Virus record (IMG/VR): IMGVR_UViG_3300042391_000071
Span: 1 to 34,507 of that record
Origin: a virus
Strand: one strand, 5' to 3'
Length of the DNA: 34,507 nt
In this document: in pieces, positions 13,723-21,936 of the stretch
Layout of the letters: each line of letters opens with the position of its first letter
Numbering within the stretch: the first letter of the stretch is position 1
Notes under the pieces: generated by a model
Seen by the model: the letters and a program-made list of their open reading frames with translations, nothing else
The model's database searches: none
What the model was told of the DNA's origin: nothing
Made by a program: the position numbers and the translations under genes

Positions 13723-14457
13723 ATGGCAAAAGACCCGGCATTTTTATTTTACCCAGGCGACTATGTTAGTGGCACAATGGGAATGACATTTGAAGAAAAA
13801 GGAGCATATATGGACTTGCTTATGCTTCAATTCAATCGAGGGCATATGAACACTCATATGATACAACATACGGTTGGTCACTTGTGGGAGCAAGTGAAAT
13901 GCAAGTTTATACAAGATGATGAAGGTTTATGGTACAATGTCAGGCTTGATGTTGAGAAGGAAAAGCGTAAAACCTTTACAGAATCAAGGCGAAACAATAT
14001 AAAACCTAAAAACAAACCAAAAGATGAACCCTCATATGAAACGCATATGAAACCTCATATGAAGCCTCATATGGAAAATGTAAATGAAAATATAAATATA
14101 GATATAATTAATAATAAAAGTAAGTGTAGTTTTGAAGAGGTTTACGAATATATGGCAATCCGGATAGGAACAGAACAGGCTAAGGTAGAAGCCGAAAAAT
14201 TTGTAAATTACTACACGAGCAACGGGTGGAGAGTAGGTAAGAACCCTATGAAAAGTTGGCAACACGCAGTAAATAATTGGATAACAAACGCTAAACAATA
14301 TGCAAAAGGAACTTCAAATAATCAACGAAAACTTGATAAGCACGAACTCGAAAACCTTAAAAACTACAACTTTATCTACTCTACTTCCTACGGAGCAGGA
14401 GATTATGACCGCATTTTCGGGGGAGAGAGTCCGGAATCTAAACTCTATCATATTTAA
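13723..14457 (+). CDS. DUF1376 (YdaU-like) replication initiator/replisome organiser candidate
   Basis: This 244-residue protein begins with FLFYPGDYVSGTMGMTFEEK, then GAYMDLLMLQFNRGHM, the hallmark of DUF1376 phage proteins encoded with helicase loaders. These are thought to be winged-helix initiators that bind the origin. The middle (residues about 87-130) is a low-complexity linker with THMKPHMKPHMEN, encoded by an iteron-like repeat, then an Asn/Ile-rich stretch from AT-rich DNA. The C-terminal part (AEKFVNYYTSNGWRVGKNPM, KSWQHAVNNW) is a motif seen in phage replication proteins. There is no Shine-Dalgarno; the ATG abuts the terminator T tract. Confidence 0.78.
   Translation: MAKDPAFLFYPGDYVSGTMGMTFEEKGAYMDLLMLQFNRGHMNTHMIQHTVGHLWEQVKCKFIQDDEGLWYNVRLDVEKEKRKTFTESRRNNIKPKNKPKDEPSYETHMKPHMKPHMENVNENINIDIINNKSKCSFEEVYEYMAIRIGTEQAKVEAEKFVNYYTSNGWRVGKNPMKSWQHAVNNWITNAKQYAKGTSNNQRKLDKHELENLKNYNFIYSTSYGAGDYDRIFGGESPESKLYHI
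14030..14120 (+). other. Putative replication origin: iterons plus AT-rich element inside the initiator gene
   Basis: Four near-direct repeats with the core CCTCATATGAA lie with their CATATG centres at 14033, 14044, 14056 and 14068 (11, 12 and 12 bases apart). Two more CATATG copies lie 12 bases apart at 13843 and 13855 in the same gene. The repeats are followed at once by about 47 bases that are almost only A and T (14074-14120). Iterons next to an AT-rich unwinding element inside the initiator gene is the arrangement of the lambda origin in gene O. Confidence 0.55.
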
Positions 14458-15058
14458 TCAAAACCTTATTTATTTGATGCAGCTTGTAGGCATTAACAAT
14501 CCTGGCGAAGTTAAGTTAGCGATTTTAGAGGATTGGATAAGAACTCAATACGGAGGCTTTACAATAAACGAGGTTAAAGTAGCGTTTAAGCAAATGGTAG
14601 CTAATGACTTCATAGACCATTACCAAAATTTTAGCCCGGCTTATTTTAGTCAGGTTATGGATAGATACAAGAAAAAAGCAAACGAAGTACGCAAAATGAT
14701 ACCACAGGAACGAGAACAAGCAATACCACATTTGACTGATTTAGAGATAATTGATTACAGTTACCAGGAGTATAAAGTTTTAGAAAATAGAACTTTTGAC
14801 AAATTGTTTAACCCTTTATCAGTATTTACAAAGCTGCATAATTCTGGCATTAAGACTTGGTCAAAAGAAGACGGAGCAGTTGCTAAAAAGAAACTAATGG
14901 AAATCATTAACTACAAGGCTAATAAAATGGATATAATCAGCGCAAAGCAGTACAGAGACGAATGGACTGAACAATGGTTAAAGAACCAAGCACGAGCCGT
15001 AGCCGTAGCTTTATTTTTTGAGGAACAAATTTTACAAAACAAAACCACATTCAAATGA
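14405..15058 (+). CDS. Putative replication protein downstream of the initiator (helicase-loader position)
   Basis: From the ATG at 14405 this is 217 residues. An earlier in-frame ATG at 14300 gives 252 but would overlap the upstream gene by 158 bases; GGAG precedes the chosen ATG by five bases. It contains LMQLVGINNPGEVKLAILED, YGGFTINEVKVAFKQM and FSPAYFSQVMDRY, a pattern common to Bacteroidetes phage proteins next to initiators. No Walker motif is visible, so it is not a clear DnaC-type ATPase. A helicase-loading or primosome role is inferred from position. Confidence 0.6.
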   Translation: MTAFSGERVRNLNSIIFNQNLIYLMQLVGINNPGEVKLAILEDWIRTQYGGFTINEVKVAFKQMVANDFIDHYQNFSPAYFSQVMDRYKKKANEVRKMIPQEREQAIPHLTDLEIIDYSYQEYKVLENRTFDKLFNPLSVFTKLHNSGIKTWSKEDGAVAKKKLMEIINYKANKMDIISAKQYRDEWTEQWLKNQARAVAVALFFEEQILQNKTTFK

Positions 15059-15810
15059 CACATGGAAGTTTATTTAGCGGAATAGGTGGCTTTGATTTAG
15101 CAGCAGAATGGTGCGGATGGGAAAACGTATTTCATTGCGAATTCGATAATGAAAAAATTAAACATCTTAAAAAAAACTTCCCAAAATCTATATCTTATGG
15201 AGACATTACCCAAACAGATTTCTCTATTTACAGAGGAAAAATCGATATCCTTACAGGAGGCTTCCCTTGCCAAGATGCAAGTATTGCAAAGCAACACGGT
15301 AAAGGTCAGCAAGGGTTACAAGGTGGCAGAACAAAGCTCTTTTATGAAATGTGCAGAGCAATCAATGAAATTAGACCAAAGTTTATTGTTGCCGAGAACG
15401 TATCAAATATTCTTAAAACTAACAGAGGGGAAGACTTTACAGCAATACTCACCGAATTATCCTCAATGGGGTATAATGCAGAATGGAGAATTTGTAGAGC
15501 GTCAGAAATCGGTGCGCCCCATCACCGTGCAAGGTTGTATTTGGTTGCTTACCCCATTAGCATCAGATTATTACCGAAACAAACTTTCTTTTCCTATGTA
15601 TCAGAAGAGACATCACCGTTCACCTGGAAGCCTTCCGGAACAGTTGTACAGATTAGTAGGGGCTATTCCTGGAATACTGAACCCCCAATTTTATGCTTGG
15701 ATAATGGGTTACCCACTAAATTGGTTACAAGACAGTTACACGGATACGGAAACGCAATAGTACCACAGATAGCTTATAGAATTTTCAAAAGTATTTCTCA
15801 ATATCAATAA
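15055..15810 (+). CDS. dcm: DNA cytosine-5 methyltransferase (Dcm family)
   Basis: This 251-residue protein has the ordered motifs of C5 methyltransferases: motif I SLFSGIGGFDLA (residues 5-16), motif IV GGFPCQD with catalytic Cys72, motif VI AENVSNI, motif VIII GAPHHRARLYLVA, and motif X HGYGNAIVPQIAYRIF near the end. The enzyme transfers a methyl group from SAM to C5 of cytosine, probably shielding phage DNA from host restriction. The target-recognition region is short. The ATG overlaps the upstream stop by four bases. A second long open frame lies inside it (15149-15760). Confidence 0.92.
   Translation: MTHGSLFSGIGGFDLAAEWCGWENVFHCEFDNEKIKHLKKNFPKSISYGDITQTDFSIYRGKIDILTGGFPCQDASIAKQHGKGQQGLQGGRTKLFYEMCRAINEIRPKFIVAENVSNILKTNRGEDFTAILTELSSMGYNAEWRICRASEIGAPHHRARLYLVAYPISIRLLPKQTFFSYVSEETSPFTWKPSGTVVQISRGYSWNTEPPILCLDNGLPTKLVTRQLHGYGNAIVPQIAYRIFKSISQYQ
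15149..15760 (+). CDS. Overlapping gene nested in the cytosine methyltransferase (+1 frame)
   Basis: A 203-residue open frame lies entirely within the methyltransferase gene. Its second half is not random: YSPNYPQWGIMQNGEFVERQ, WLLTPLASDY, RHHRSPGSLPEQLY and GILNPQFYAWIMGYPLNWLQ. I know this order of phrases (PxWGMMxNG, LLPTPxASD, GSLxE, LNPxFxEWMMGFPxxW) from proteins annotated beside or within phage cytosine methyltransferases. Upstream, EASLAKMQVLQ also fits their N-terminal half. The host frame keeps motifs VIII and X over the same bases. It could be an accessory or target-recognition protein. Translation is not proven, and the first 60 residues may be shadow. Confidence 0.5.
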   Translation: MKKLNILKKTSQNLYLMETLPKQISLFTEEKSISLQEASLAKMQVLQSNTVKVSKGYKVAEQSSFMKCAEQSMKLDQSLLLPRTYQIFLKLTEGKTLQQYSPNYPQWGIMQNGEFVERQKSVRPITVQGCIWLLTPLASDYYRNKLSFPMYQKRHHRSPGSLPEQLYRLVGAIPGILNPQFYAWIMGYPLNWLQDSYTDTETQ

Positions 15811-20645: not shown

Positions 20646-20863
20646 GAAAGTTATGGGCTATATGGTTTATCCTAACACATAAGGCTTACTTTGTTGCAGT
20701 ATGTAAGACAGGTATGAATGGAGATGATATGACAACCATAGGCAACTACACCTATGCGATGGCAGAAACTTTAATCAATAAGCACATAGCAGACGTAGAC
20801 ACTTACTTAGATCAAGAAGACGCAATAGACGAAGCAAACGATATAATAAACGGAATACTATGA
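20642..20863 (+). CDS. Hypothetical protein
   Basis: This 73-residue protein (MRKLWAIWFILTHKAYFVAV start) has a hydrophobic N-terminal 20 residues that could be a membrane anchor or a buried strand. An acidic helical end follows (NKHIADVDTYLDQEDAIDEA). The TTIGNYTYAMAETLINKH phrase occurs in similarly placed proteins of related phages. ATGA overlaps on both sides place it firmly in the packaging operon. No function is known. Confidence 0.6.
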   Translation: MRKLWAIWFILTHKAYFVAVCKTGMNGDDMTTIGNYTYAMAETLINKHIADVDTYLDQEDAIDEANDIINGIL

Positions 20864-21936
20864 TACAAAACGTACCAATCAACACAGTTAAAGCAAACCC
20901 TAACAACCCTAGGATAATTAAAGACGATAAGTTTGCAAAGCTCGTAAAGTCAATTAACGAGTTCCCTCAGATGCTTAACCTTAGACCTATTGTAGTTAAT
21001 GACGATATGGTTGTGCTTGGTGGTAATATGAGATTAAAGGCTTGTAAGGAAGCCGGACTTAAAGAGATACCGATTATCAAAGCAAGTGAATTAACCGAAC
21101 AGCAGCAAAAGGAATTTATAGTTAAAGACAACGTAGGCTATGGCGAGTGGGATTGGAACGACTTAGCTAATAATTGGGATGAGCAGGAGTTAATAGATTG
21201 GGGGTTAGACATACCCGGCTTTGATGCAGAAGTTATAGAAGCTGAGGAAGATGACTTTGCAGTTCCAGACGGAGGGATTGAAACGGATATAGTATTAGGA
21301 GATTTATTTGAGATAGGGGAACACCGATTGCTTTGTGGGGATAGTACGGATATTGAAAAGGTAGAACTTTTAATTAAAGGAGATAAATGTAACTTACTTA
21401 CCGACCCACCATATGGTATTAAAGCAAATAAACAAACACTTGGTACAGGTAAAAAGCAATTTCATAGAGGCGAAGATTGGGATAACGAAGTGCCTGACTT
21501 TTTTTATATTTTAGCTTTAATAGACCAAGCTATTATTTGGGGTGGTAATTATTTTACAAATAGACTTGATGTAACTAATGATTGGTTATGTTGGCATAAA
21601 AAAAATGACGGATTAAGTTTTAGTGAATTTGAATTAGCTTGGTCAAATGTTGGAAAAAATTGTAGATTATTTTCTCACCATTGGGGTGGCGAGGAGAAGA
21701 TGCACCCTACTATGAAACCAATCAAGGTAATGGAATGGTGTATATCATTTTTAGATGAGAAGCCAATTTTAGATATTTTTAGTGGTTCTGGTTCAACAAT
21801 GGTTGCTTCACATCAATTAAAAAGGAAGTGTTACGGAATGGAACTCGACCCTAAATATTGCCAAGTTATAGTAGACAGGATGCGTAAACTTGACCCAACA
21901 TTAGTTATTAAAAAGAACGGGTTACCTTTGGAATAA
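20860..21936 (+). CDS. ParB/sulfiredoxin-like domain fused to N6/N4 DNA methyltransferase
   Basis: This 358-residue fusion has residues 1-100 as a ParB-type N-terminal domain (NPNNPRIIKDDKFAKLVKSI, LRPIVVNDDMVVLGGNMRLK, with GGNxR). The rest is an amino-methyltransferase with DPPYGI at 182-187 (catalytic motif IV) and FSGSGST at 307-313 (SAM-binding motif I), followed by CYGMELDPKYC. Motif IV preceding motif I marks the beta class. It methylates adenine N6 or cytosine N4. Near the terminase genes, such fusions may mark phage DNA for protection or packaging. Confidence 0.9.
   Translation: MIQNVPINTVKANPNNPRIIKDDKFAKLVKSINEFPQMLNLRPIVVNDDMVVLGGNMRLKACKEAGLKEIPIIKASELTEQQQKEFIVKDNVGYGEWDWNDLANNWDEQELIDWGLDIPGFDAEVIEAEEDDFAVPDGGIETDIVLGDLFEIGEHRLLCGDSTDIEKVELLIKGDKCNLLTDPPYGIKANKQTLGTGKKQFHRGEDWDNEVPDFFYILALIDQAIIWGGNYFTNRLDVTNDWLCWHKKNDGLSFSEFELAWSNVGKNCRLFSHHWGGEEKMHPTMKPIKVMEWCISFLDEKPILDIFSGSGSTMVASHQLKRKCYGMELDPKYCQVIVDRMRKLDPTLVIKKNGLPLE

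Follow-up and report, generated by a model that had tools for sequence, protein, structure and literature searches.

The gene at positions 15055–15810 of the window (the whole stretch of viral DNA analysed, 34,507 nucleotides) very probably determines both chains of a two-polypeptide C5-cytosine methyltransferase of the M.EcoHK31I kind, the reading frame for the second chain (beta) being nested within that for the first (alpha); expression and activity are inferred. Dual coding, a splitting of constraint between the two frames, the distribution of the methyltransferase motifs, wide conservation of the layout and the existence of staggered forms of it were all observed computationally. Hundreds of phages and prophages share the nested arrangement, which is rarely annotated in them.

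The catalytic chain

Alpha satisfies the motif criterion for C5-methyltransferases (motifs I, IV, VI, VIII and X), with LFSGIGGF, GGFPCQ, AENVSN, GAPHHRAR and GNAIVPQ following one another in that order and the catalytic cysteine codon at 15268–15270. Its best match in the PDB (phmmer) is M.HhaI, at 1.7e-22 over motifs I–VIII, and it is recognised by Pfam PF00145 (E=2.4e-49, covering residues 2–168 only) and NCBIfam dcm (E=5e-46). All of these matches end at about residue 168–170, just past motif VIII. Retention of motifs VIII and X in the main frame had been noted from the outset, and both can be read directly (GAPHHRAR and GNAIVPQ); motif X, as GNAxVP, is retained by alpha in every one of the 65 nested relatives, where it sits past the end of beta or at beta's last codons. 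Between these two motifs, neither a recognition region nor a motif IX was recognised in alpha, so that the window chain does not have a target-recognition region and motif IX alongside motifs I–VIII and X. A canonical motif IX was present in the alpha frame at only one of 260 loci, the Drs3-type locus L099.

The features to which we refer, all on the + strand, are as follows.

15055–15810, +: alpha, C5-cytosine methyltransferase catalytic chain, 251 amino acids (PF00145, dcm and M.HhaI matches)
15256–15273, +: alpha motif IV, GGFPCQ (read directly; aligned with GFPCQ of M.HhaI)
15511–15534, +: alpha motif VIII, GAPHHRAR (read directly; an aligned column in 65 relatives)
15748–15768, +: alpha motif X, GNAIVPQ (read directly; downstream of the motif IX of the beta frame)
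15149–15196, +: 5' section of the +1 open reading frame, probably untranslated (conservation starts at about 15197)
15197–15760, +: beta, nested +1-frame protein, 187 amino acids, likely start ATG 15197, stop TAG 15758–15760
15461–15493, +: PQWGIMQNGEF segment of beta, overlapping the codons just ahead of alpha motif VIII
15533–15676, +: variable region of beta, beginning GCIWLLTPLASD, proposed target-recognition region (frame-specific constraint)
15677–15724, +: beta equivalent of motif IX, LNPQFYAWIMGYPLNW (M.HhaI spacing; beta dNN/dNS 0.35)

A nested frame in the alpha gene

The nested open reading frame, 15149–15760, comprises 203 codons and a stop in frame +1 relative to the methyltransferase frame 15055–15810, just as it had been described in the original prediction, and on translation it spells the phrases that had been quoted from it. 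Only its start needs revision: beta probably begins at ATG 15197, since this is where homology sets in, 10 of the 11 close relatives retain the ATG (the eleventh has an ATG a few codons upstream), and in many others a +1 stop occurs shortly before an ATG or GTG lying within a few bases of the equivalent of 15197. No obvious ribosome-binding site could be discerned for this start, which is deep inside alpha.

Between its stops at 15098 and 15758 the +1 frame is open for 219 codons (15099–15757), and there are 21 stops in the +2 frame of the gene. When the synonymous codons of the main frame were permuted in 20,000 trials, the longest +1 opening had a median of 53 codons and a maximum of 158; as none of these alpha-preserving shuffles reached the observed length, P is < 1/20,000. 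The +2 frame was unremarkable in the same test (P = 0.30). A chance open frame, a decayed gene and an insertion element were each considered as the origin of the +1 frame, and rejected.

The window beta is matched by the phrog_1008 profile (E=1e-9), as are all 11 of its close relatives, and it is recognised by neither Pfam nor NCBIfam; a search with a beta profile found no relative in the PDB. AlphaFold2 models of beta alone, from 11 and 54 sequences, were not confident (pLDDT 38 and 59), so a recognition-domain fold has not been shown. The PQWGIMQNGEF segment is near-invariant among the 11 close relatives, and most distant betas have (S/W)G.M.NG.

Motif IX and the relatives of beta

The C-terminal end of beta, LNPQFYAWIMGYPLNW, has the spacing of a C5-methyltransferase motif IX, and M.HhaI has LHPRECARVMGYPDSY in the equivalent position; the family consensus, LNPxWVEWLMGFPxGW, keeps to motif IX spacing, which is equalled by that of RKLHPRECARVMGYPDSY in M.HhaI.

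A lack of homologues of the +1 frame, or stops in that frame in close relatives, would have refuted the original prediction. Homologues proved abundant, and in close relatives the frame is uninterrupted by stops. A tblastn search with the +1 protein found 77 phage records, including phages of Mycobacterium, Porphyromonas, Vibrio, Salmonella, Sulfitobacter, Stenotrophomonas and others, with many of the matches lying beneath annotated methyltransferase genes. Scans of viral contigs with each of the two proteins gave 12 and 80 loci, of which essentially all that were readable carry the +1 open frame (178–407 codons, increasing with the length of the main frame; in one, L034, the main frame is broken). 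The nested frame was also seen directly on translating 12 public phage loci, two of which, in Methanobacterium virus Drs3 and Lactococcus phage 4268, belong to a different type, whose +1 frame ends in LSDILE..V.EKYFLS.

In further searches, loci were chosen by the motif IX of beta alone and the best 80 were kept by similarity to one query, and the scanned loci are not independent samples of phages. Among the matches listed, beta was nested in alpha in the +1 frame in 74 of 81 motif occurrences in viral contigs, and in 76 of 80 occurrences when one genome was taken for each bacterial or archaeal species; the exceptions in both scans were mostly cut by the locus end, truncated or rearranged. A third such search gave, again among the matches listed, 65 nested cases out of 77, the other 12 being staggered. 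Nine of these 12, together with Streptomyces phage Samy, have an alpha that terminates beyond motif VIII and a beta frame that goes on to include the variable region, motif IX and motif X (staggered relatives resembling M.AquI are L172, L218, L219, L221, L224, L231, L244, L285 and phage Samy). The staggered loci are the strongest evidence that the C-terminal half of beta is the C-terminal part of a methyltransferase.

It might be supposed that alpha alone is the enzyme and that beta has a separate accessory or regulatory function, for example in modulating the methyltransferase or as an overprinted phage protein unrelated to it, given that alpha carries motifs I–VIII and X and that no domain is recognised in beta. 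We regard this as very unlikely: motif IX is missing from alpha, whose variable region is unconstrained, whereas beta has motif IX at canonical spacing, and motif X itself is in the beta of the staggered relatives. A two-chain enzyme remains our preferred reading, and the proposal that an accessory or target-recognition protein is overprinted within the gene for its own enzyme is supported, beta having features of the recognition region and motif IX, with expression not shown.

The further expectation that homologues of the +1 frame would exist elsewhere as separate genes was not borne out, as beta is almost always nested, or staggered past the stop of alpha, and no clean stand-alone beta gene without an overlapping alpha was found among the viral and the bacterial and archaeal matches listed. 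Betas that were candidates for stand-alone or fused copies were rejected on inspection: L125 adjoins further methyltransferase frames of the nested kind; L323 and L341 are either truncated at the 5' end or recombined; in L346 the frame is disrupted; L174 is no more than a short piece next to an alpha-type motif X; and L117, L153, L158, L169 and L329 are cut by the ends of their loci.

As a control, the longest +1 opening was determined for 19 single-chain enzymes (examined within L189–L211), and was 29–60 codons. The Drs3 enzyme and its relatives L185–L188 form a distinct case: the latter have a canonical in-frame motif IX and, in addition, a +1 frame of 165–246 codons, and the sequence LSDILE..V.EKYFLS, which in single-chain enzymes follows motif VIII in frame 0, is in the +1 frame of L185–L188 and Drs3 (LSDILEECPAEKYFLS in L187). 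L185, L187, L188 and L099 (Methanobacterium virus Drs3) are complete single-chain methyltransferases with in-frame motif IX plus the long +1 frame.

Selection divided between the frames

Constraint was estimated from 26 non-overlapping, independent pairs of sequences, each change being scored by its effect in both frames. The script was a reimplementation of the idea of OLGenie, with a fixed 2:1 transition weight, and not OLGenie itself; the test is limited by the small divergence of some pairs and by the number of independent pairs (n=26).

Ahead of the beta start, which serves as a negative control, alpha dNN/dSN was 0.17 and the beta ratio 1.06. From the beta start to motif VIII (motifs III–VIII), the alpha ratio was 0.26 (0.17–0.33) and beta dNN/dNS 0.73 (0.46–0.93); between motifs VIII and IX, in the variable region, alpha dNN/dSN rose to 1.22 (1.00–1.56) and beta dNN/dNS was 0.47 (0.32–0.60); and over motif IX the values were 0.75 (0.49–1.21) for alpha and 0.35 (0.21–0.54) for beta. 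Alpha is therefore protected over the catalytic motifs I–VIII (and over motif X, as judged by motif conservation), and beta over the variable region and motif IX. Where beta runs across alpha motifs III–VIII it is under only weak constraint, and the role of this stretch of beta is unclear. Because the constraint ratios switch frame along the gene, the two frames share bases but for the most part do not share selection; the earlier statement that both look selected over the same bases was thus too strong, the constraint being divided along the gene.

Stop codons give a complementary picture. Across 65 distinct nested genes, four stops fall in the 5' half of the +1 frame, where synonymous shuffling of alpha would lead one to expect 135, and all four (in L044–L046 and L056) are at the upstream edge, before the later starts of the betas concerned. 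In the variable region of the same genes there are no frame-0 stops, against 284 expected from synonymous shuffles of beta.

Could the +1 frame nevertheless be untranslated, and open only through conserved alpha codons and a base composition that excludes stops? Alpha is indeed strongly conserved over the 5' half of the nested frame, where constraint on beta is weak (0.73), but shuffles that preserve alpha never give an open frame of the observed length, such a frame is absent from single-chain methyltransferases, the variable region is constrained in beta and unconstrained in alpha, and distant betas have motifs in common there. This reading is already contradicted, and we can allow it scarcely any weight: the +1 frame of the window is a real coding frame and not a by-product, although its expression is inferred rather than shown.

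Programmed +1 ribosomal frameshifting deserves a little more consideration. Motifs I–VIII would be read in frame 0, and a shift would then give a fused chain with the variable region and motif IX of beta; this would accord with the offset between the frames, which is always +1, with the change of constrained frame near motif VIII and, at the staggered loci, with a single chain having motifs I–VIII, IX and X. It is nonetheless improbable, because both frames stay open where frameshifting would not need them to: the beta frame is free of stops for about 100 codons upstream of any useful shift site (the four edge stops against 135), and frame 0 is held open across the variable region as far as motif X (none against 284). 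Moreover, in the nested form the shifted product would be without motif X, and at 56 loci the beta frame opens at an ATG 4 nt after the start of alpha.

The last arrangement, which we would interpret as separate initiation of two chains, is a tandem start, NTGAATGAG, in which the alpha and beta starts overlap, 4 nt apart. It is found at 56 of 211 nested loci, and is often preceded by a purine-rich stretch, so that one ribosome-binding site could serve both. At two loci with the tandem start (L244 and L182), the alpha codon is TTA rather than ATG, GTG or TTG, and the beta ATG is intact; alpha may have another start there, or may be off.

The betas contain from one to six [L]PTP units, many having two to six. 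Multiple units would fit tandem recognition modules without proving them, and the clustering of units was too loose to establish module swapping. At L063, L075, L087 and other loci of Bacteroidota type, the variable regions consist of several units (up to six) led by [L]LPTP, each of which is open in both frames, and similar units recur in differing combinations.

Comparison with known systems

Lee, Kam and Shaw reportedly described, in 1995, a small subunit of M.EcoHK31I read from an alternative frame inside the gene for the large subunit, and on that account the window meets the same nesting criterion, its +1 frame lying wholly inside 15055–15810. The large subunit of M.EcoHK31I carries motifs I–VIII and X, the small subunit carries motif IX, and two polypeptides are needed (PMC3404938). 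The window matches this distribution, with motif IX only in the second chain. M.EaeI is counted with M.EcoHK31I as an enzyme of this two-polypeptide kind. It differs in that the target-recognition domain of M.EcoHK31I has been placed in the large subunit (PMC3404938), whereas the variable region of the window gene is constrained in beta, and in that M.EcoHK31I belongs to a restriction-modification system, whereas the window gene is carried by a phage and no restriction enzyme was seen adjacent to it. The window enzyme thus resembles M.EcoHK31I in motif distribution and in its reported nesting, and no sequence comparison with M.EcoHK31I underlies the likeness.

M.AquI is closer to the staggered relatives: motifs I–VIII are in alpha, the variable region, IX and X in beta, and the split falls within the variable region. 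In the window, by contrast, alpha carries motif X and the whole of beta is nested. The single-chain enzymes M.HhaI and M.HaeIII have all their motifs in one frame, and nearly all of the single-chain viral relatives are without a long +1 open frame; the likeness of the window proteins to M.HhaI is in the alpha match over motifs I–VIII and in the spacing of motif IX in beta.

Among phages, some mycobacteriophage methylases contain an out-of-frame HNH endonuclease, the ShiLan domain (PMC11855218); in these genes, as at the window locus, a further protein is read in a different frame from the methylase. The ShiLan domain is, however, a mobile insertion, a homing endonuclease in the third frame, whereas beta is a region of the enzyme itself and not an insertion. 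Closer to the window is gp51 of Paenibacillus larvae phage Rani ('g50 Internal gene', named as a DNA methyltransferase), which is nested in the +1 frame of a cytosine methyltransferase gene and contains LNPDWVECLMGFPIGW; this is an annotation only, and no division of labour is described there.

A working model

On the model that we favour, alpha, translated in frame 0, would supply the AdoMet-binding and catalytic domain (motifs I–VIII), a weakly constrained linker and the C-terminal motif X, and beta, translated separately from an internal +1-frame start, would supply the target-recognition region and motif IX. The two would then assemble into one working enzyme, much as M.EcoHK31I needs two polypeptides. 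It is inferred that both chains are produced and interact, and that beta determines sequence specificity, and the recognition role of the variable region is proposed from its position and its constraint. Phage methyltransferases are generally known to mark the phage's own DNA, and it is inferred that the phage would probably use the enzyme in this way, for instance as protection from host restriction. None of the neighbouring genes examined was identified as encoding a restriction enzyme.

From the scans, the nested class is apparently widespread, its share of all phage C5-methyltransferases being unmeasured, and our searches of the literature available to us found no report of widespread nested phage methyltransferase subunits. 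Split or nested two-polypeptide enzymes as such are known (M.EcoHK31I and M.AquI); what departs from the published description of M.EcoHK31I is the apparent placing of the recognition region in beta, and what is apparently new is the breadth of occurrence. It seems to us rather likely, though less secure than the reading of the window gene itself, that a large share of the short, singly annotated C5-methyltransferases of phages and prophages are mis-annotated heterodimers, with a +1 overprinted specificity subunit that carries motif IX and the recognition region, and with motif X moving between the frames according to lineage. If so, half of the enzyme is absent from the annotation of hundreds of phage and prophage methyltransferases, and may also have been absent from any tests made of them, the recognition region lying in a frame that nobody translates; and M.EcoHK31I would pass from a biochemical curiosity to an example of a widespread architecture. 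The locus is also an unusually clean case of natural overprinting, in which the dispensable linker of one gene is a functional domain of the other and the switch of selection between frames can be measured codon by codon.

Further features of the window and of individual loci

The window has a second DNA methyltransferase, at 20860–21936, with a ParB-like N-terminal domain (phrog_498 and phrog_67). Upstream of alpha, the open reading frames 13723–14457 (primosomal-protein-like) and 14300–15058 overlap in different frames by 158 bases (14300–14457) if the first ATG of the second is its start, which could also lie further downstream.

In Mycobacterium phage Llama (L101, 2133–2892), both frames are displaced at once by an indel that distinguishes it from phage Spikelee, so that the N-terminus of beta runs into the C-terminus of alpha, and this natural broken copy is annotated as two methylase genes. 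The chromosome of an uncultured Roseovarius (OX638333.1) gave five beta-motif matches with equal alignment statistics (L337, L338, L340, L344 and L345), which are possibly repeated prophages. L018 has a second, partial copy of a beta C-terminus (2–127) about 2.8 kb upstream of its full nested gene. A close relative of the Salmonella phage copy is present in four of 5426 E. coli genomes, with one methyltransferase CDS annotated there.
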